In this document: positions 38,268 to 47,773 of the stretch, one piece after another
Position numbering within the stretch: position 1 is the first letter of the stretch
How the letters are laid out: every line of letters begins with the position of its first letter
Assembly (NCBI RefSeq): GCF_008727715.1
Contig: NZ_CP044218.1
Span: forward strand, 186,001 to 250,000
Reading direction: 5' to 3'
DNA: 64,000 bases
Source of the DNA: Mesorhizobium terrae
Lineage (GTDB): Bacteria > Pseudomonadota > Alphaproteobacteria > Rhizobiales > Rhizobiaceae
Translations under genes and position numbers: made by a program
Notes under the pieces: model-generated
Seen by the model: the letters and a program-made list of their open reading frames with translations, nothing else
Database searches by the model: none
What the model was told of the DNA's origin: nothing

Positions 38268-39209
38268 TCACCACACCCATTCGCCAGCACCCAGCCGGCC
38301 GACTGCCTCGACGATCCGCGTAAAACTTTCGCGGGCGCGCTTCACCGTATGGCGGGCGCGCAAATAGCCATGCACCAACCCTTGTTCTTCATGCCAGAAA
38401 GCCTTGCCGCGGGTGGTGAGGATACGGTCCCTATAGGCCTCCCCATCCGAAGACAGTGGATCGCATTCGGCGGTGATGACGATGGTGGGCGGCAGGTCGG
38501 AAAAATCGCGATCGAGCAGCGGCGCGAGAGTAGCATCGCCGATCCTGCCCTCACCGCCGGTGCGGATATCCTTGTAGAAGATCAGATCCCGCATGGTCAG
38601 CATCGGCGCTTCAGCGTGGGTGATGTAAGAACCCTTGGTCTGATCGCCACCGAGACCGGGATAGATTAGCACCTGGCCGACTGCGCGGCGCGGGTGGGCA
38701 CGCGTGGCGTGCGCAACCGCCGAGGCCAGATTGCCCCCCGCGCTGTCGCCGACCAGCAGGATCGGCAAGGCAGTGCTCGAGACAGCCCAATGGAACGCTG
38801 CCACCGCGTCGTCGAAGGCGGCCGGGTGGCGATGCTCCGGCGCCAACCGATAGTCGACGGAGACGACCTCATAACCGGTTCGGGCACACAATTCTGCGCA
38901 GACATCGTCATGGCTTTCGAGACCGCCGACAACGAAGCCGCCGCCGTGGAAATAAAGCACAAATGCCTTCGCTGCCTCGTCCCGATGGCGATAGATGCGG
39001 ATGGGAATGGCGCGATCAGGCGTCTCGATCGCGGTCGTTTCCACCGTAACGCCCTCGGGATAACCGGCGAAGAACTCGCGGCACATGCGGTCATAGACGA
39101 CGCGCTGCTGCTCGATCGTGTAGTCGATGGTGTCGGGCGGATAATAGGAATTGGTCTTCTCGATGAAGGCCCAGGTCTCGGCGTCGATCAGCTTCGCATA
39201 GTCGGTCAT
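38268..39209 (-). CDS. Alpha/beta hydrolase, hormone-sensitive-lipase family
   Basis: 313 residues. Oxyanion motif HGGGFVVGG, nucleophile GDSAGGN, acid in TAECDPLSSDGEAYRD and His in EQGLVHGYL are all present. Such enzymes hydrolyse short-chain esters. Last gene of the eight-gene minus-strand operon, 13 bases after the hydratase. In this setting it could serve as esterase or thioesterase for acyl-carnitine or betainyl-CoA (inference only). Confidence 0.85.
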   Translation of the reverse strand: MTDYAKLIDAETWAFIEKTNSYYPPDTIDYTIEQQRVVYDRMCREFFAGYPEGVTVETTAIETPDRAIPIRIYRHRDEAAKAFVLYFHGGGFVVGGLESHDDVCAELCARTGYEVVSVDYRLAPEHRHPAAFDDAVAAFHWAVSSTALPILLVGDSAGGNLASAVAHATRAHPRRAVGQVLIYPGLGGDQTKGSYITHAEAPMLTMRDLIFYKDIRTGGEGRIGDATLAPLLDRDFSDLPPTIVITAECDPLSSDGEAYRDRILTTRGKAFWHEEQGLVHGYLRARHTVKRARESFTRIVEAVGRLGAGEWVW

Positions 39210-39222
39210 GGCAGTTGGCCGC

Positions 39223-40005
39223 TCACCTTCCCTTCCACACCGGGTCGCGCTTTTCGGCGAAAGCCTTGAAGCCTTCGAGATTGTCTTCGGAGGCGTAGAG
39301 CTCGTCGACGGTGCGGAACTGGCGCTTGGTGATCCAGTTCATGGCATCCTGGAAAGTCATGGCCTCGGCCGCGCGCGCGACCTCCTTGATGGCGGAGAAG
39401 ACAAGCGGCGGGCCGCCTGCCAGCAGGCGCGCAATCTCCCATACGCGATCTTCAAGTTTGTCGGCCGGCAGCACCTCGTTTACAAGGCCCCAGCGGTGCG
39501 CCTCCTGTACGTCCATCCAGCGGCCGGTGAGCAAAAGGTCCATGGCGACGTGATAGGGAATGCGCTTCGGCAGCTTGATGGTGGCGGCATCGGCCAGCGT
39601 GCCGGCGCGGATCTCCGGCAGCGCGAAGCTCGAATGGTCGGAGGCGTAGATCAGGTCGCAAGAGAGCGCCAGTTCGAAGCCGCCGCCCACCGCCATGCCG
39701 TTGACGCAGGCGATGACCGGCTTATTGAGGTCGCGCAATTCCTGCAGGCCGGCAAAGCCGCCAACGCCATAGTCGCCATCCACCGCGTCACCGGCGGCTG
39801 CCGCCTTCAGGTCCCAGCCGGCCGAGAAGAACTTGTCGCCGGCGGTCTTGACGATGGCGACGCGCAGTTCCGGATCGTCGCGGAAAGCCTTGAAGGTTTC
39901 GCCCAGCAGGCGCGATGTCTTCAGGTCGATGGCATTGGCTTTCGGCCGATCGAGCGTGACTTCGAGGATGACACCCTCGCGGCGGGTTGTTACGACGTCA
40001 GACAT
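39223..40005 (-). CDS. caiD: Enoyl-CoA hydratase family, carnitinyl-CoA dehydratase-like
   Basis: 260 residues, crotonase fold. LDRPKANAIDLKTSRLLG, the oxyanion pair FFSAGWDLKAA and VNGMAVGGGFELALSCD, and the SSFALPEIRAGTLADAAT segment with Glu follow CaiD more than FadB. CaiD interconverts crotonobetainyl-CoA and L-carnitinyl-CoA. AAGGAG seven bases upstream supports ATG 40005, 16 bases inside the end of the ligase gene. Context with carnitine dehydrogenase strengthens the call. Confidence 0.85.
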   Translation of the reverse strand: MSDVVTTRREGVILEVTLDRPKANAIDLKTSRLLGETFKAFRDDPELRVAIVKTAGDKFFSAGWDLKAAAAGDAVDGDYGVGGFAGLQELRDLNKPVIACVNGMAVGGGFELALSCDLIYASDHSSFALPEIRAGTLADAATIKLPKRIPYHVAMDLLLTGRWMDVQEAHRWGLVNEVLPADKLEDRVWEIARLLAGGPPLVFSAIKEVARAAEAMTFQDAMNWITKRQFRTVDELYASEDNLEGFKAFAEKRDPVWKGR

Positions 40006-42137
40006 TCTTCTTCTCCTTCGGCGAAAGCGCCTGCCATCTTTTCCGTGGCCGTGTGGGCGGTGGTAACCATCAATGCATCGGCGATCCATGCGCCCTTGCC
40101 TTCGGCGCAGACGATCAGCGGGTTGATGTCCAGTTCCTCGATCTCGTCGGCATGGGCGATGGCGAAACCGGCGATCTTCTCGATGGCCGCGATGGCCGCG
40201 CCAAGGTCGGCTTTTGCCCGGCCGCGATAGCCGTCGAGCAGCGGAAACAGTCTAAGGCTGCGCAGCGCCGTCTCGATCTCGGGTCGCGTGGCAGGCAGGA
40301 GCAGCGTGGCGCTGTCCTTCAGAAGTTCGACCAGCACGCCGCCAGTTCCCACCGTCATCACCGGGCCGAAGATCGGATCGCGGGTCAGGCCGACGATCAG
40401 CTCCGCGATGCCGCCCGCCACCATGGCCTCGACATAGAGACCGCGACCGAGCGGAAGCAGTGCCGTGGCGGCATCGCGCACATCCTCGATGCTCTTGAGG
40501 TTGAGGCGCACAGCACCAAGCTCGCTTTTGTGGGCGACGCCAAGTGCCTTGAGCGCCACCGGAAAACCGAGTGCAGCTGCCGCATCGACGGCTTCGGCGA
40601 CGCTTGCCGCGCGACGACCGCGCGGCACCGGCAGCCCGGCTGCCGCCAGCATGGCCTTTGCAGCGGCTTCATCGGGCGTATTGCGGCCTTGCCCGAACGC
40701 GCCGGATTGACCTCCGAGCAACGCGGGAACGGCAGGCTTGCGCCAAGCTTCACCGACAAAGACCGCTGCTTCGGCGGCATCAAAAGCTTCGGCTATACCA
40801 TGGATCGGCACGATGCCGCGCCGGAGCAGTTCAGTGGAATGATCTTCCGACAGGTTTTCGCCCATCGAGGCAACGATGGCGCCACGCGCGCCGTTGGTCT
40901 TCAACGCTTCCTCGAAAGCATTGACCGTCGGCCACCAGTCGGCGTCCGAGCAGCGATCGGTGCGCGGGAAATCCAGCACCAGCATGTTCAGGCCAAAACC
41001 GCCCGAGACCATCGCAGAGAAAGTCGCCGTCAGCGCCTCCTGCTTGCCCCAGATATAGGTGTTGTAGTCAAGTGGATTGGCCACAGCGACGAGCGGGCCG
41101 AGCGTCTCCTGCACGCGCGCGCCATGCGCCTCAGTCAAAGCCGGGAAATGCACGAGCCGGCCCTCGGCTGTATCGGCCATGACGGATGCCTCTCCGCCGG
41201 AACAACTCATGGAGGACAAGGTCGGCTTCTCCAGCGGCCCTACCGCGTGCAGGAGCTTCAGCGTCTCCAGGAAAGACGGAATGGTGTCGACGCGCGGAAT
41301 GCCGAGCCGCTTGAGGAAAGCATCCGACGCAGCGTCTGAACCCGCAAGCGAGGCAGTGTGCGAGATGGTGGCGGCACGCGCCTGTTCGGAGCGGCCGACC
41401 TTCATGGCGACGATCGGTTTCTTCAATTCGCGCGCCCGCGCCGCCAACCGCTCGAAACCGTCGACCTTGTCGAACCCCTCGATATGCAGGCCGAGGCTGG
41501 AAACGCGGTCGTCCTCGATGAGGCCAAGCGCCATTTCGGAGAGACCGGTCTGCGCCTGATTGCCCGCCGTCATCAGGAAAGCAACCGGCAGGCCGCGCAT
41601 CTGCATGGTGAGGTTGCATGCGATGTTGGAGGATTGCGTGATGATGGCGGTGCCCTTCTCGCCTTCCACCAAACGGCGACCGCCATGCTGGTCGGGCCAC
41701 AACAGCGCGCCGTCGGCATAGTTGATCAACCCGTAGCAGTTCGGGCCGATGATCGGCATGTCGCCGGCAGCTTCGATCAGCGCCTGCTGCAAATCCTGCC
41801 CTTCAGCCTCGTAATGCGCGGTCTCGCGAAAACCGGCCGCGAAGCAGATGGCGCCGCCGGCACCGGCCGCGCTCAATTCGCGCACCACGTCGATGGTGAG
41901 GTGGCGATTGACGCCGATGAAGGTAGCATCCGGCGCGTGCGGCAGCTCCGCGAGCGAACGATAGGCCTTGACCCCGGCGACCTCGTCCTTTGTCGGGTGG
42001 ACCGGCCAGATTTCGCCGGCAAAGCCCATCTTCAGCGATTGCTTGACGACGTTGGGCGCAAAGAAGCCGCCGCCGACAACCGCGATGGATTTCGGACGCA
42101 GCAAACGGGAAAGGTCGCGGATACGAGGCAATGTCAT
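39990..42137 (-). CDS. Acyl-CoA synthetase, NDP-forming (acetate-CoA ligase family)
   Basis: 715 residues. N-terminal CoA-binding Rossmann domain (LRPKSIAVVGGGFFAPNVVK), succinyl-CoA-ligase-like middle (IGPNCYGLINY, TQSSNIACNLTMQMRG, and SHTASLAGSD for the usual phospho-His loop) and C-terminal ATP-grasp (PVALKALGVAHKSELGAVRL, VGTGGVLVELLKD). Forms an acyl-CoA from acid, CoA and ATP. In this operon, gamma-butyrobetaine, crotonobetaine or carnitine is the likely acid (inference). Overlaps neighbours on both sides (4 and 16 bases). Confidence 0.88.
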   Translation of the reverse strand: MTLPRIRDLSRLLRPKSIAVVGGGFFAPNVVKQSLKMGFAGEIWPVHPTKDEVAGVKAYRSLAELPHAPDATFIGVNRHLTIDVVRELSAAGAGGAICFAAGFRETAHYEAEGQDLQQALIEAAGDMPIIGPNCYGLINYADGALLWPDQHGGRRLVEGEKGTAIITQSSNIACNLTMQMRGLPVAFLMTAGNQAQTGLSEMALGLIEDDRVSSLGLHIEGFDKVDGFERLAARARELKKPIVAMKVGRSEQARAATISHTASLAGSDAASDAFLKRLGIPRVDTIPSFLETLKLLHAVGPLEKPTLSSMSCSGGEASVMADTAEGRLVHFPALTEAHGARVQETLGPLVAVANPLDYNTYIWGKQEALTATFSAMVSGGFGLNMLVLDFPRTDRCSDADWWPTVNAFEEALKTNGARGAIVASMGENLSEDHSTELLRRGIVPIHGIAEAFDAAEAAVFVGEAWRKPAVPALLGGQSGAFGQGRNTPDEAAAKAMLAAAGLPVPRGRRAASVAEAVDAAAALGFPVALKALGVAHKSELGAVRLNLKSIEDVRDAATALLPLGRGLYVEAMVAGGIAELIVGLTRDPIFGPVMTVGTGGVLVELLKDSATLLLPATRPEIETALRSLRLFPLLDGYRGRAKADLGAAIAAIEKIAGFAIAHADEIEELDINPLIVCAEGKGAWIADALMVTTAHTATEKMAGAFAEGEEECLTS

Positions 42138-42868
42138 GGCTTTGCAATCACAGAAATGTTGTCGGCGCCGGATGCCGCCGCGCGGAGATTTTCAAGTTCG
42201 GACAGATATTCCGACGTTGCCGTCACACCTTTCGGGCTCAGCGCGTAGATGCCGGCGCTGACGCGCTCGAACCAGCCATAGTGGTTGTCGGTCATCAGGC
42301 GGCGGGCATGCGCGACATTCGTCTGGCGAGCGACTTCGGCCGCTTTTGTCGGGCCCTGTTCGTCAAGCAGTTTCAGGCAGCGCAGTGCTTCCTGGCGGTA
42401 GCCGGTCACCAGGTTGCGGCGGGTCGCGCCGCCGAGGTTCGGATCGCCGACCAATCTTTCGAATTCGCGCAGCAGCCGCGTTTTGCGTGGCTTCGACTGC
42501 CGCGGCTTGTACGGCGCGGGATCGCAATGGATTTCCGTGAAACCATCCGCAAGTCGGACCGTAATCAGGCCAAGACCAAGCCGCCGGCACAGCTTCCTGT
42601 TGTCGACCAGCGCCTTCAGCGAAGCCCGGCCTGTTCCACGCGGCACGGCGATGTAGACCGCGTCGCTGATTGTCTGACGCTGGATGGCCTGATGAAACAG
42701 GGAAAGCGAGAAGCCGGCCTTCAGTTCGACAATGACCGGATCGTCGCCATCGCGCACCGCCACGATGTCGGCGGCGCCAACCTCGCCCTTGACCATGTAG
42801 CCCTGCGTTTCGAGCAGGCGCTTCACAGGCAGATATAGGTCGGTTTCCCTGATGCCGGTCTTCGCCAT
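42134..42868 (-). CDS. DUF2161 protein, PD-(D/E)XK nuclease-like
   Basis: 244 residues. N-terminal half carries a PD-(D/E)XK-type core: KGEVGAADIVAV (Asp) then DPVIVELKAGFSLSLFHQA (Glu-x-Lys) with an R/Q-rich helix after it. The C-terminal part resembles a winged helix (GPTKAAEVARQTNVAHARRL). No activity is established for DUF2161. It starts nine bases after the acyl-CoA dehydrogenase and overlaps the ligase by four bases, so it is embedded in a metabolic operon where a nuclease is not expected. Confidence 0.75.
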   Translation of the reverse strand: MAKTGIRETDLYLPVKRLLETQGYMVKGEVGAADIVAVRDGDDPVIVELKAGFSLSLFHQAIQRQTISDAVYIAVPRGTGRASLKALVDNRKLCRRLGLGLITVRLADGFTEIHCDPAPYKPRQSKPRKTRLLREFERLVGDPNLGGATRRNLVTGYRQEALRCLKLLDEQGPTKAAEVARQTNVAHARRLMTDNHYGWFERVSAGIYALSPKGVTATSEYLSELENLRAAASGADNISVIAKP

Positions 42869-42877
42869 TTCGCTGGA

Positions 42878-44041
42878 TTATCCCCCAACCGCCCTCAACA
42901 GGGCGCGGGAAATGATGTGGCGCTGGATTTCGGACGTGCCTTCCCAGATACGCTCGACACGGGCGTCGCGCCAGATGCGCTCCAGCGGCAGATCGTCCAT
43001 CAGGCCCATGCCGCCATGGATCTGGATCGCCTCATCGGCGATGAAGGCGAGCACCTCGGTGGCCTTCAGCTTGGCCATCGCCATGTCTTGGTCGGTCACG
43101 GTGCCCTGGTCGTACTTCCAGCCGGCTTCGCGGGTCAGGAGTTCGGCCGCCTTCAATTCCATCGCCATATCGGCCAGCTTGAAAGAGACGCCCTGGAACT
43201 TGCCGATCTGCTGGCCGAACTGCTCGCGCTGCGCGGCATAGTCGATGGCGTGCTGAAGCGCGCGCTCGGCGCGGCCGAGACAGGTCGAAGCGACCTGCAA
43301 GCGGGTGGCGCCGAGCCAGCTGTTGGCAACTTCGAAGCCCTTGTGGACTTCGCCCAGTATCTGCTCCTTGGGGATACGGCAGTCGTCGAATTCCAGGACC
43401 GCATTGGTGTAACCGCGGTGCGAGACATTGCGATAGCCGTCGCGCACGGTGAAACCGGGCGTGCCCTTGTCGACGAAGAAAGCGGTGATCTTCTTGCGCT
43501 TGCCGCGCGAGCTGTCCTCTTCGCCCGACGCCATGAAACAGATGGCGAAATCGGCTATGTCGGCATGCGAGATGAAATGCTTGGTGCCGTTCAGCACCCA
43601 GTCGCCGCCCTTCTCCACCGCGCTCGCCTTCATGCCGCGCAGGTCGGAGCCGGCACCGGGCTCGGTCATGGCCAGGCAATCCCACTTTTCACCGCGGATG
43701 CAGGGGAAGAGATATTTCTCCCGCTGCTCCGGCGTACCGGCGAGCAGGATGTTCGAGGGCCTGGCGACACAGGTCCAGTGCAGTGCATAGTTGGCGCGGC
43801 CGAGTTCCTTCTCGTAGAGCAGCCAGGTCAGCGTATCGAGGCCGGCGCCGCCGACTTCGGCCGGCATGTTCGCCGCGTAAAGACCAGCGGTGATCGCCTT
43901 GGCCTGCAGCTCCTTGACGAGGTCCATGCGCAGATGGCCAGTGCGCTCAACCTCCTGTTCATGCGGGTAGAGCTCGTTCTCGACAAAGGCACGCGTGGTG
44001 TCGACGATGAGCTGCTGTTCTTCGGTCAGGCCGAAATCCAT
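42878..44041 (-). CDS. Acyl-CoA dehydrogenase (crotonobetainyl-/butyrobetainyl-CoA type)
   Basis: 387 residues, FAD-dependent. MDFGLTEEQQLIVDTTRAFV start, LAMTEPGAGSDLRGMKASAV, KHFISHADIADFAICF, and C-terminal YGGMG-like IQIHGGMGLMDDLPLERIWRD and RIWEGTSEIQRHII are standard. CaiA/Bco-type members act on gamma-butyrobetainyl-CoA, making crotonobetainyl-CoA, the substrate of the CaiD homologue in the same operon. Substrate inferred from context. Three bases from carnitine dehydrogenase. Confidence 0.88.
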   Translation of the reverse strand: MDFGLTEEQQLIVDTTRAFVENELYPHEQEVERTGHLRMDLVKELQAKAITAGLYAANMPAEVGGAGLDTLTWLLYEKELGRANYALHWTCVARPSNILLAGTPEQREKYLFPCIRGEKWDCLAMTEPGAGSDLRGMKASAVEKGGDWVLNGTKHFISHADIADFAICFMASGEEDSSRGKRKKITAFFVDKGTPGFTVRDGYRNVSHRGYTNAVLEFDDCRIPKEQILGEVHKGFEVANSWLGATRLQVASTCLGRAERALQHAIDYAAQREQFGQQIGKFQGVSFKLADMAMELKAAELLTREAGWKYDQGTVTDQDMAMAKLKATEVLAFIADEAIQIHGGMGLMDDLPLERIWRDARVERIWEGTSEIQRHIISRALLRAVGG

Positions 44042-44044
44042 GGC

Positions 44045-45139
44045 TCAGCCCTTCTTTCCGGCGGTCTTTTTGACTGCCTTCTTCACCGGCTTGGACGCCT
44101 TGGCTTTCGCTGCGGCGGCCGAAGTCTTCGTCTTCATCGAAGCCAGGTCGGCGAGCTGCTTGGTATAGCTCTTGTGCAGCGCGCCGGCGCCCCAGCCCTT
44201 GCCCTTGTTCTGTTTGGACAGGGCATCCATGATCGCGACGAGATTGTCGTCACGGATCTTTTCCAGCTCGCGGATCGACCATTTTTGCGACTGGTCGTCG
44301 GACTGGCCGGCGATCAGGTCAACCAGCTCGTCGTTGAATTCCGGCACGTTGGTCAGCTTCGTCCATGGCCATTGCAGGCAGGGGCCGAACTGCGCCATGA
44401 AGTGGCGCATGCCAGCCTCGCCGCCGGCGATGCGGTAGACCTGGAACATGCCCATCTGCGCCCAGCGCAGGCCGAAGCCGTAGCGCATGATGTCGTCGAG
44501 TTCCTCGACGGTGCAGATGCCGTCCTTGATCAGCCACAGCGCCTCGCGCCAGGCCGCCTCCAGAAGGCGGTCACCCACAAAAGCCTCGATCTCCTTGCGG
44601 ATGACGACAGGTTTCATACCGATGGACGCGTAGATCTCCTTGGCGACCTCGATCGCTTCCGGGAAGGTCTGCGCGCCGCCGACGATCTCGACGATCGGCA
44701 GCAAATAGACCGGATTGAACGGATGGCCGACCACCAGCCGCTCGGGGTGTTTCTTCATCGCCACCTGCATATCGGACGGCTTGATGCCGGAGGTGGACGA
44801 GCCAACAATCGCGTTGGCGGGAGCATGCAGGTCGATCTCGGCCAGCACCTTGTGCTTGAGGTCGAGCCGCTCGGGCACGCTTTCCTGGATGAAATCGGCG
44901 TCGGCGACCGCCTCGGCAATGGTCTTGGCGAAGGTCAGCTTGCCTTCCTTGGGCAGGCCGCCGGGAACCATCTGCTTGTAGGCGCGACGCGCGCCCTTCA
45001 TCACCTCGGCGACCTTGCGCGAGGCCTCAGGATCGGGGTCGAAGATCGAAACGTCGATGCCGTTGAGCAAGAGGCGCGCGACCCAGCCCGCGCCGATGAC
45101 ACCGCCTCCGATGGCAGCTGCTTTGACGATTGTGCTCAT
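44045..45139 (-). CDS. L-Carnitine 3-dehydrogenase, with Lys/Ala-rich C-terminal tail
   Basis: 364 residues of the 3-hydroxyacyl-CoA dehydrogenase family. NAD Rossmann motif GGGVIGAGWVARLLLNG, SSTSGIKPSDMQ, VVGHPFNPVYLLPIVEIVGG and FVGDRLLEAAWREALWLI match LcdH/CdhA, which oxidises L-carnitine to 3-dehydrocarnitine. The core ends near residue 330; the last 30 residues contain 11 Lys with Ala, Pro, Thr (KASKPVKKAVKKTAGKKG), unlike the ~320-residue Pseudomonas enzyme and unlike rhizobial versions with a thioesterase tail. Overlaps the HD gene by four bases. Call supported by the adjacent cleavage enzyme and GlxA regulator. Confidence 0.88.
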   Translation of the reverse strand: MSTIVKAAAIGGGVIGAGWVARLLLNGIDVSIFDPDPEASRKVAEVMKGARRAYKQMVPGGLPKEGKLTFAKTIAEAVADADFIQESVPERLDLKHKVLAEIDLHAPANAIVGSSTSGIKPSDMQVAMKKHPERLVVGHPFNPVYLLPIVEIVGGAQTFPEAIEVAKEIYASIGMKPVVIRKEIEAFVGDRLLEAAWREALWLIKDGICTVEELDDIMRYGFGLRWAQMGMFQVYRIAGGEAGMRHFMAQFGPCLQWPWTKLTNVPEFNDELVDLIAGQSDDQSQKWSIRELEKIRDDNLVAIMDALSKQNKGKGWGAGALHKSYTKQLADLASMKTKTSAAAAKAKASKPVKKAVKKTAGKKG

Positions 45140-45765
45140 GCGGGCGCTCCGCTTCTTTCCTTGGCGATTTCGGGGTTGACCAGTGCGACGCGTTCGCCGG
45201 CACGGATGACGGAAGGATCGTATGCCTTGCGGGCGAAGACCTCGATGACGAAGGGCCGGAAGAACTCGATCGGAAGGGTTTCGTAGTCGGGATCGAAACT
45301 CGACTGGTCCCAGCGTTCGCAGAACTGGTCGCAGTCGTCGTAGTAGGCATGGCCGGTGAACTTATCGCGCGCATGGCGATTACCGCCGAGATGATGGGCG
45401 TAATAGAGGCGCTGGAAGTCGCCGTGCTTTTCCACCACCCAGGTGCACTGTTCGCGCACGAACGGTTTCAGGATCGTGGCCGCGTATTCGTCGTGATTGT
45501 AGGGCGCGTATATGTCGCCAATATCGTGCAGGAGCGCGCAGGCGATCCAGTCGGTATCGGCGCCGTCACGCCAGGCGCGTGTGGCTGCCTGCAGCGAATG
45601 GCCGAGACGGCTGATCTTGTAACCCGACAATCCCTCGTCGAGTTGGACGAGCGCGTCGAGCAGGCGGTCGCCTGTCTTGGCGGCATAGTCGATCTCATGG
45701 GCGGTCAGGAACGCATAGTCGTCCTTGTCGCCATCCTTCATCGCGGTGAATTTGACCGTGGTCAT
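45136..45765 (-). CDS. HD-domain protein, putative mixed-valent diiron oxygenase (PhnZ/TmpB/MIOX-like)
   Basis: 209 residues. Candidate metal ligands by pattern: His56 (RLGHSLQAATRAW), His80-Asp81 (ACALLHDIGD), His91 (YNHDEYAA), His114 (VVEKHGDF) and Asp153 (CERWDQSSF). The H-x23-HD ... H ... H ... D order and the GHSLQ / ALLHDIG wording resemble the HD oxygenases PhnZ, TmpB and MIOX more than phosphohydrolases. The Tyr and Glu of the PhnZ Y-x-G-E loop are replaced: that stretch reads LSGYKISRLGH. It lies between the 3-dehydrocarnitine cleavage enzyme and carnitine dehydrogenase, overlapping the latter by four bases, so a quaternary-ammonium substrate is plausible. Function inferred; not known. 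Confidence 0.7.
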   Translation of the reverse strand: MTTVKFTAMKDGDKDDYAFLTAHEIDYAAKTGDRLLDALVQLDEGLSGYKISRLGHSLQAATRAWRDGADTDWIACALLHDIGDIYAPYNHDEYAATILKPFVREQCTWVVEKHGDFQRLYYAHHLGGNRHARDKFTGHAYYDDCDQFCERWDQSSFDPDYETLPIEFFRPFVIEVFARKAYDPSVIRAGERVALVNPEIAKERSGAPA

Positions 45766-45798: not shown

Positions 45799-46716
45799 TC
45801 ACGCCGCGATCGGCGCACGCTTCACGAGGTTGAGCTTCTTGCGCACCTCTTCCGGCCCGATGACCCGGGCGCCCAGATTTTCGACGACAGAAACCGCGCG
45901 CTCTACCAGTTGCGCGTTGGTGGCGAGCACGCCCTTGTCCAGCCACAGATTGTCTTCGAGACCGACGCGCACGTTACCGCCGGCAAGCACCGCCGCAGCG
46001 GCATAAGCCATCTGGTTGCGGCCGAGCGCGAAGGCCGAGAAGGTCCATTCCTTCGGCACATTGTTGACCATGGCCATGAAGGTGTTGAGGTCGTCCGGCG
46101 CACCCCACGGCACGCCCATGCACAACTGCACCAGCGCGTCGGGAGCCAGGATCTTCTCCTCGACCAGTTGCTTGGCGAACCAGAGATGGCCGGTGTCGAA
46201 GGCCTCGATCTCCGGCTTGACGCCCATCGCCGTCATCATGCCGCCCATGGCACGCAACATGCCCGGCGTGTTGGTCATGACGTAGTCGGCTTCGTTGAAA
46301 TTCATCGTGCCGCAGTCGAGCGTGCAGATTTCGGGCAGGCACTGGCGCACATGTTCGACGCGGTTGGAGGCGCCGCCCATGTCGGTGCCCTGCTCCTTCA
46401 ATGGCAGCGGGCTTTCAACCGGGCCGAACACCATGTCGCCGCCCATGCCGGCGGTGAGGTTCAAGACCACATCGACATTGGCATCGCGGATGCGCTCGGT
46501 CACCTCACGGTAGAGATGCACGTCGCGGCGCGGCTTGCCTGTCTCGGGATCGCGGACATGGCAATGGACGATCGCCGCACCCGCCTTGGCCGCCTCGATA
46601 GCCGAATCGGCGATCTGCTTGGGCGAGCGCGGCACATGCGGGCTGCGGTCCTGCGTGCCACCGGAACCGGTCACGGCACAGGTAATGAAGACCTCGCGGT
46701 TCATCGCAAGCGGCAT
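45799..46716 (-). CDS. Beta-keto acid cleavage enzyme (BKACE), 3-dehydrocarnitine:acetyl-CoA type
   Basis: 305 residues, DUF849 TIM barrel. Zinc motif IVHCHVRDPETGK (HxH), NLTAGMGGDM, LDCGTMNFNEADYV, and the C-terminal GGNVRVGLEDNLWLDKG with Glu are typical. CdhC-type members exchange acetyl-CoA with 3-dehydrocarnitine to give betainyl-CoA and acetoacetate. GGGAGG six bases before ATG 46716. First gene of the minus-strand operon, divergent from the GlxA-type regulator. Confidence 0.9.
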   Translation of the reverse strand: MPLAMNREVFITCAVTGSGGTQDRSPHVPRSPKQIADSAIEAAKAGAAIVHCHVRDPETGKPRRDVHLYREVTERIRDANVDVVLNLTAGMGGDMVFGPVESPLPLKEQGTDMGGASNRVEHVRQCLPEICTLDCGTMNFNEADYVMTNTPGMLRAMGGMMTAMGVKPEIEAFDTGHLWFAKQLVEEKILAPDALVQLCMGVPWGAPDDLNTFMAMVNNVPKEWTFSAFALGRNQMAYAAAAVLAGGNVRVGLEDNLWLDKGVLATNAQLVERAVSVVENLGARVIGPEEVRKKLNLVKRAPIAA

Positions 46717-46792
46717 AGCTTTCCTCCCGAAATGCTTTTCACCGATCATTGCGCCGCTTGCCGAAGTCTGCTTTGCGCTTTACGAAACAAAC

Positions 46793-47773
46793 ATGGCCAA
46801 ATCCGAAAGGCAGACAATCTTTTTTGCCGAGCGCGCGCCGCTCAAGGTGACGCTGCTAGTGTTCTCCGGCTCGTCGATCATGTGCGTGGCCTCCGCCGTC
46901 GATCCGCTGCGCGCGGCAAACCGCATCACCGGCGAGACGCTGTTCGACTACCGGCTGGTGTCGATGACGGGCGATGCACCGGTGACGACATGTGGCCTGC
47001 CGGTGGCTGTGTCCGGACGCTTCGACCCCGCCGAGGCCGCCGACATGCTGGTGGTGATCGCTGGCTTCGGCACGCAGAACTACGCGACTTCGGCGCTGCT
47101 TTCCGGCTTGCGGCGCGCGGCGCGCACGGCACGCGCGGTCGGTGGCGTCGAAGCCGGAACATGGCTGGTTGCGCGTGCGGGACTGCTCGAAGGGCGCAGC
47201 GCGACCACGCACTGGGAAGACATGGAGGATTTCACCGCAGCCTTTCCCGGCACCGACGTTCGCCCCGACCGCTATGTCATCGACGGTCCGGTCTTCACCT
47301 CGGGCGGCGCCTCGCCAACCTTTGACCTGATGCTACACCTGGTGCGCTCGCGGCTTGGCATGGCTGTGGCGCTCGATGTCGCCTCGGTCTTTATCTACGA
47401 TCAGGCGCGCGCCGCCACCGACGCGCAACCCCTGGTCTCGCTCGGCCGCCTCGATGGCTACGATCCGCGCCTGGCGCAGGCGATCCGGCTGATGGAAGCG
47501 CATGTCGACCAACCGCTGACGATCGCGGCCATCGCCCGACGTGCGGGCATCACTGCCCGCACGCTGGAGAGCATCTTTCGAGCCTCGATCGGCGAAACAC
47601 CCGGGGCCTACTACCTCAGGCTCAGGCTCGGTGCCGCCAGACGACTGGTGGTGGACACACGCATCGCCATGGCTGACATCGCCGGGCGAACGGGCTTTTC
47701 GTCCGCTGCGGCATTCTCAAGAGCGTTTTCAAGAGCTTTCGGCGAGGCGCCGGTCAGGTTGAGACGCGGCTGA
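46793..47773 (+). CDS. GlxA-family transcriptional regulator (CdhR-like)
   Basis: 326 residues. N-terminal DJ-1/PfpI-like effector domain (KVTLLVFSGSSIMCVASAVD, VIAGFGTQNYATS, VGGVEAGTWLVARAGLL) and C-terminal AraC helix-turn-helix pair (DQPLTIAAIARRAGITARTL, ADIAGRTGFSSAAAFSRAF). In Pseudomonas, CdhR of this architecture activates carnitine catabolism. Start at 46793; 76 bases separate it from the BKACE gene it probably controls. Well-preserved domains, no oddity. Confidence 0.88.
   Translation: MAKSERQTIFFAERAPLKVTLLVFSGSSIMCVASAVDPLRAANRITGETLFDYRLVSMTGDAPVTTCGLPVAVSGRFDPAEAADMLVVIAGFGTQNYATSALLSGLRRAARTARAVGGVEAGTWLVARAGLLEGRSATTHWEDMEDFTAAFPGTDVRPDRYVIDGPVFTSGGASPTFDLMLHLVRSRLGMAVALDVASVFIYDQARAATDAQPLVSLGRLDGYDPRLAQAIRLMEAHVDQPLTIAAIARRAGITARTLESIFRASIGETPGAYYLRLRLGAARRLVVDTRIAMADIAGRTGFSSAAAFSRAFSRAFGEAPVRLRRG

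Follow-up and report, generated by a model that had tools for sequence, protein, structure and literature searches.

A predicted HD-domain diiron oxygenase of a large, uncharacterised family is encoded in the carnitine operon of Mesorhizobium terrae

The carnitine operon of Mesorhizobium terrae contains, between the genes for BKACE and carnitine 3-dehydrogenase (CDH), a gene for an HD-domain protein whose family is large, uncharacterised and similar to O2-using enzymes acting on inositol and phosphonates. The gene lies in a window of 64,000 nt (contig NZ_CP044218.1, positions 186,001 to 250,000), which is the whole stretch of DNA analysed and to which all coordinates refer:

45136–45765, minus strand: HD-domain protein, predicted diiron oxygenase (209 aa, ATG start; predicted ligands H56, H80, D81, H91, H114 and D153)

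With somewhat better than even confidence, the protein is read here as an HD-domain diiron oxygenase of the kind represented by PhnZ, TmpB and myo-inositol oxygenase (MIOX), as a member of an unnamed subfamily that has adapted to a substrate other than a phosphonate. This reading is based on the ligand set, the predicted fold, the loss of residues typical of phosphonate enzymes, the pairing of part of the family with 2-oxoglutarate (2OG) dioxygenases, and the operon. The product is a small, probably iron-binding protein; its iron, use of O2, C–C bond cleavage and substrate we infer by analogy with the known enzymes.

A first-pass annotation, which gave no strand, had named the ligand-like residues H56, H80–D81, H91, H114 and D153. 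All of these are found at the named positions in the translated minus-strand open reading frame (ORF), with a spacing of 24 residues from H56 to H80, and the motifs ALLHDIG and LSGYKISRLGH occupy residues 77–83 and 46–56. The same annotation rightly described the Y-x-G-E loop as replaced: in a profile alignment, Y24-I-G-E27...H34 of PhnZ faces L46-S-G-Y49...H56, the PhnZ Tyr being exchanged for Leu (L46) and the Glu for Tyr (Y49). A Pfam scan recovers the HD domain (PF01966) at 24.4 bits, above the gathering score of 22. Membership of the MIOX family (PF05153) was rejected since the score of 20.1 bits is below the Pfam gathering score of 25; a PF05153 search of 60 genomes gave no match but was uninformative, as 14 controls were likewise blank. 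The models for TmpB (NF049941, 20.8 bits against a curated cut-off of 300), Phn-HD (TIGR03276, 33.8 against 214.6) and PhnZ1 (NF052439, 26 against 300) all score the protein below their cut-offs.

Relatives are numerous: a database search returned 7,879 of 8,000 scored candidates at E<=1e-3, and matches, including a few weak ones, occur in 34/150, 62/398 and 120/385 genomes sampled from the order, phylum and class, respectively, the three samples overlapping. Two sets of loci were compared, with gene calls of our own. The nearest set takes the 80 top-ranking loci out of 359; 77 of the 80 are labelled Mesorhizobium, while L009, L049 and L050 have vaguer labels. A further 120 regions and four plasmid regions yielded a called HD gene in 123 of 124 cases; for the remaining locus (L207), where the gene caller gave none, the annotation was read instead. 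These 123 loci are not a random sample. Nearly all strong places of the order and phylum surveys were taken, with the exception of G285, G336, G400 and the copies in carnitine operons of the window's genus; to these were added plasmid records and 40 further class-survey places, picked because their identity was higher or their genomes small. The counts are not independent, since many loci come from a shared genus, a few genomes supply two loci each, and L155 represents the second copy of a genome from the window's genus. In four genomes, two HD-family copies are adjacent (L265 at G831:C68, G627:C30, G720:C64 and G873:C14), perhaps as heteromers or as copies with diverged substrates.

A profile of 79 sequences (69 of the 80 nearest loci plus ten of a set of 121 proteins) matched PhnZ (E 2.8e-13) and TmpB (4.1e-11) in the PDB, the next match following at 0.044. 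The active-site alignment holds 121 sequences, namely the window protein and 120 of the 123 loci, three having been dropped by a length filter. The six ligands H...HD...H...H...D are invariant in all 121 and, taken together with the profile matches, place the likeness to PhnZ and TmpB above chance. H91 and H114 are present throughout, and the mononuclear HD phosphohydrolase site (H...HD...D without the two extra His) was not found in any aligned sequence. The predicted structure falls closest to the MIOX/PhnZ/TmpB class; its nearest folds are oxygenases, so that the structural check proposed with the first-pass annotation did not refute it. Profile matches, nearest folds and conserved ligands thus point to the diiron-oxygenase type proposed in the first-pass annotation and away from a mononuclear phosphohydrolase.

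The surroundings of the metal site differ from those of twelve phosphonate-type sequences used for comparison (six TmpB proteins above the model cut-off and six further PhnZ-like ones). Tyr and Glu of the Y-x-x-E loop before the first His occur in 12/12 of these and are absent from the window protein (L46/Y49); at position 49, where all twelve carry Glu, the HD family has Tyr (84 of 121), Phe (36) or Leu (one). Four basic positions, each conserved in 12/12, are also replaced: His at position 84 by Asp (119/121), Lys at 118 by Gln (121/121), Arg at 150 by Glu (79), His (19) or Ala (12 of 121), and Lys at 157 by Phe (121/121). The SLQGG insert of phosphonate-type enzymes is absent, while F117, Q118 and F157 are invariant in the HD family and R133 is found in 120/121. 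By sequence match, positions 84, 118 and 150 correspond to H62, K108 and R158 of PhnZ, which we take to be phosphonate contacts. The loss of the basic residues argues against a phosphonate substrate, and a different kind of molecule is probably cut. It likewise makes it very improbable that the protein is after all an enzyme of oxidative C–P cleavage, as a diverged isoenzyme of TmpB with some other phosphonate as its substrate, despite a fold and profile close to TmpB and PhnZ, a TmpA-like partner in some relatives (the one at L196 exceeding the TmpA cut-off, as detailed below) and a His at position 150 in 19/121. True TmpB moreover coexists with the HD protein in 5/6 genomes, the window gene sits in a carnitine operon, and the neighbour lists, read by eye and not searched systematically, showed no recognisable phosphonate gene.

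The operon is a closely spaced run of minus-strand genes, bordered by a divergent regulator:

46793–47773, plus strand: GlxA/CdhR-like AraC-family regulator, divergent (ORF; start and family by eye)
45799–46749, minus strand: BKACE (Pfam PF05853, 324.7 bits; start possibly 46704)
44045–45139, minus strand: CDH, unfused form, 364 aa (PRK07531, 588.5 bits, cut-off 592; PRK07066, 363.6 bits, cut-off 414)
42878–44041, minus strand: acyl-CoA dehydrogenase (Pfam Acyl-CoA_dh)
42134–42868, minus strand: DUF2161 protein, PD-(D/E)XK-like (Pfam scan)
39990–42137, minus strand: NDP-forming acyl-CoA synthetase (Pfam ATP-grasp_5, Succ_CoA_lig, CoA_binding_2)
39223–40089, start perhaps 40005, minus strand: crotonobetainyl-CoA hydratase-like enoyl-CoA hydratase (NCBIfam PRK03580, 319.8 bits, cut-off 500)
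38268–39209, minus strand: alpha/beta hydrolase, final gene of the run (ORF; family named by eye)

CDH is named after its two best NCBIfam models, which score it just under (PRK07531) and well under (PRK07066) their cut-offs, and PRK03580 is the best among the listed models, of 72 matching the enoyl-CoA hydratase-like protein. From its place in the operon, the acyl-CoA dehydrogenase is probably a gamma-butyrobetainyl-CoA dehydrogenase. Assigned by family and operon, with models below their cut-offs, the run reads as a gamma-butyrobetaine/carnitine route ending at betainyl-CoA. The coordinates confirm the reported position of the HD gene between BKACE and CDH: it starts 33 nt downstream of the BKACE end, and its stop shares 4 nt with the CDH start (45136–45139). 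The DUF2161 gene, with a tblastn match in 0/80 nearest loci, looks like an insertion, and conservation of the acyl-CoA synthetase (73%) is below that of most other operon genes (loci L001, L017 and L044).

The window CDH aligns to positions 1–339 of the 495-aa carnitine 3-dehydrogenase model, and stand-alone thioesterases of loci L196 and L249 cover positions 345–494, so that the window enzyme lacks the thioesterase part. The earlier remark that no betainyl-CoA thioesterase is visible in the operon holds for the seven proteins scanned, the last gene, the alpha/beta hydrolase, not being among them. A hotdog thioesterase-like gene elsewhere in the genome (L266, G000:C2:3672246-3672680), which shares 41% identity with the L196 thioesterase and has no recognised carnitine gene around it, is a possible betainyl-CoA thioesterase. 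A thioesterase role for the HD protein itself was rejected, given this hotdog relative and the presence of both a thioesterase and an HD gene at L196 and L249.

As the first-pass annotation had supposed, the place of the HD gene in a carnitine operon is a real one among the nearest loci: the order BKACE-HD-CDH-acyl-CoA dehydrogenase is kept in 80/80 nearest loci, the alpha/beta hydrolase is retained beside the operon in 77/80, and the regulator is divergent in 79/80. This constant order, the 4 nt shared with the CDH start and the recurrence of HD in two more clusters of carnitine type make it distinctly improbable that the protein is a passenger of other function placed there by a Mesorhizobium accident, as might be thought from the mutually unrelated look of most loci elsewhere. 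The two clusters came from the neighbourhood survey proposed with the annotation, which therefore did not refute it either. L196 holds a TmpA-like gene, HD, a substrate-binding protein (SBP) 31% identical to choline SBPs, a divergent CdhR-like regulator, BKACE, a thioesterase and an L-carnitine-dehydrogenase-type gene (413.7 bits, cut-off 414), and L249 holds HD, a thioesterase, BKACE and a carnitine-dehydrogenase-type gene (343.8 bits, cut-off 414). Furthermore, a carnitine-dehydrogenase-like gene lies directly upstream of HD in L129 (321.9 bits, cut-off 414) and L130. Plasmid pF045_1 carries, per its annotation, TauD, HD, a choline SBP, choline dehydrogenase and aldehyde dehydrogenase (ALDH). 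The Rhizobium plasmid L210 carries HD, a choline-dehydrogenase-type gene (subfamily model 728.9, above 605; BetA model 644.4, below 732.1), a choline SBP (466.9, above 379.05) and an ALDH-like gene. MttB-like, sarcosine-oxidase-like and UroD-like genes occur near a few more loci.

Other neighbours are also seen. In L227, L228 and L232, the HD gene is followed directly by genes for a urate-oxidase-type protein and (by eye) a PuuE-like allantoinase; in the window, allantoin-type genes lie at about 26.7–30 kb (by eye), outside the HD operon. A class II aldolase-type gene directly adjoins the HD gene in L178, L200, L204 and L205.

Among the 123 other loci, the recurrent partner of the HD gene is a 2OG dioxygenase. 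A same-strand upstream gene within 150 nt is present in 65/123 loci, and by Pfam it is of the TauD family in 12/65 and of the PhyH family in 9/65, one PhyH match (L140, 21.2 bits) being under the Pfam cut-off of 22. These tallies list 25 families of 63, 61 and 108, and a single TauD or PhyH match downstream or in the control is possible. Two loci were left uncounted: in L143, a gene of similar type lies 198 nt upstream but is not matched by Pfam, and in L234 the TauD gene is on the opposite strand. Hidden Markov models (HMMs) trained on the neighbours assign 12 TauD, eight PhyH and one third 2OG-like type upstream (21/65), as opposed to 0/121 downstream and 3/1,829 elsewhere; their p-value (1e-29) is inflated by this training and is not relied on, the Pfam tallies being independent. 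The gaps between the paired genes, -8 to 97 nt, suggest operons. All nine TauD partners tested of the 12 score best against TmpA (317.7–423 bits), and the cut-off of 400 is passed by L196 (423) only. In the PDB, the L208 partner matches TmpA (3e-54) and then gamma-butyrobetaine dioxygenase (1.5e-31). Ten partners compared with seven genes beside TmpB-type genes differ from them at conserved positions, e.g., 181, 300 and 336 in L208 numbering. HD genes paired with one or another 2OG type lie dispersed on a rough tree (FastTree only, many weak forks), and the hydroxylase partner therefore seems swappable.

By analogy with the known enzymes, Fe1 would chelate the substrate hydroxyl and a neighbouring oxygen, and Fe2, with the centre in the Fe(II)/Fe(III) state, would bind O2. 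A superoxo species would remove H from the carbinol carbon, and the bond adjacent to the carbinol would be cleaved in a four-electron oxidation without an external reductant. In relatives encoded directly behind a TauD/TmpA-like or PhyH-like dioxygenase, the hydroxyl would come from the hydroxylase, and the neighbouring C–C bond would then be cleaved by the HD enzyme. The reaction, R-CH(OH)-COO- + O2 -> R-COO- + HCO3-, would be the carboxylate analogue of that of TmpB, as in a conversion of 2-hydroxy-3-trimethylammoniopropionate to glycine betaine. The pF045_1 set could be explained by carboxylate isosteres of the TmpA and TmpB substrates, beta-alanine betaine and its 2-hydroxy form, with dehydrogenase, ALDH, hydroxylase and HD protein acting stepwise towards glycine betaine. 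In Mesorhizobium, the substrate may arrive already hydroxylated, either as carnitine or as a by-product formed along the carnitine route. A ready-made hydroxy compound is favoured there by the lack of a TmpA-like or L168-type PhyH match in the window's genome, a weak argument since that search was blank in every genome searched.

The broadest form of this proposal is tentative and rather doubtful: the substrates of a widespread HD subfamily would be hydroxylated carboxylates, in many cases trimethylammonium acids, whose C–C bonds it would cleave as the carbon counterpart to TmpB. The hydroxyl would be added by an exchangeable 2OG hydroxylase (TauD/TmpA-like, PhyH-like or of the third type), and the HD enzyme would then shorten the acid with O2, often to glycine betaine; in Mesorhizobium it would need no hydroxylase and would act on carnitine or on a shunt product derived from it. 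As a special case of the preferred oxygenase reading, the HD protein might cleave carnitine directly with O2, by analogy to glycine betaine and glycolate, as an aerobic shortcut beside CDH and BKACE. The operon position and coupling to CDH, the hydroxyl already present on carnitine, the weak genome result just given and the clusters of L196 and L249 speak for this. A beta-hydroxy acid, however, is no established substrate shape for the enzyme class, the task is already covered by CDH and BKACE, and most relatives lie away from carnitine genes, which leaves direct cleavage decidedly unlikely.

A number of observations weigh against an oxygenase of this kind and its link to quaternary ammonium compounds. 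R53, three residues before the first His, is conserved in 120/121 sequences and placed like SAMHD1 R164 before H167, a phosphatase trait. The six-ligand dinuclear HD motif also serves the Ap4A hydrolase YqeK, and HD sequence alone is described as unable to tell cofactor or substrate (PMC8177086). Many relatives, moreover, bear the source name "predicted HD phosphohydrolase". On these grounds the protein could be a dinuclear HD phosphohydrolase or phosphodiesterase, e.g., of a CoA- or nucleotide-linked metabolite, with six ligands as in YqeK; against the folds and profile matches above, we consider this unlikely. In L226 and L229, a phosphate-SBP-like gene (by eye) lies downstream of the TauD-HD pair, a hint of phosphorus that would suit C–P cleavage. 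A same-strand 2OG dioxygenase immediately upstream within 150 nt is missing in 102/123 loci, and the window HD gene has no adjacent hydroxylase. BKACE and CDH accompany the HD gene in only 2/123 other loci, and in 94/123 all 19 markers tried, which stand for the metabolism of carnitine, choline, betaine or methylamine, are missing. The quaternary-ammonium link is therefore suggestive but not general. The diiron-oxygenase type and the place in a carnitine operon survive from the first-pass interpretation; carnitine as a family-wide substrate was rejected as stated.

No publication on the HD family was found in the open-licence literature, which does not show its absence from print. An Arctic SAR11 island with CDH, BKACE, BBOX, CHDH and ALDH has been reported, the main text of which does not mention an HD protein (PMC12421898). 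If the oxygenase reading is true, the family would be a large addition to the HD oxygenases, described as MIOX, PhnZ and TmpB (PMC8177086) together with a G. maris PhnZ variant (from the G. maris pair) and the fused PhoF (PMC10574752). It would extend the C–C cleavage that bacteria perform with a diiron cofactor, and the breakdown of carnitine, choline and betaine could gain an O2-dependent step from it. Its small size (209 aa) and substituted pocket positions make the window protein directly testable.

Among the known systems, YqeK shares the six-ligand dinuclear motif with the HD protein, and MIOX (2huo, 2ibn) is 16% identical to it over the structural match. The 2-amino-1-hydroxyethylphosphonate oxygenase PhnZ (4n71, 4mln, 4mlm, 4n6w) carries Y24 and E27 where the HD protein has L46 and Y49, and its H62, K108 and R158, presumably the phosphonate contacts, are replaced by D84, Q118 and E150. 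The (R)-1-hydroxy-2-trimethylaminoethylphosphonate oxygenase TmpB (6npa) differs from the HD family by its basic residues and SLQGG insert, both of which the family lacks.
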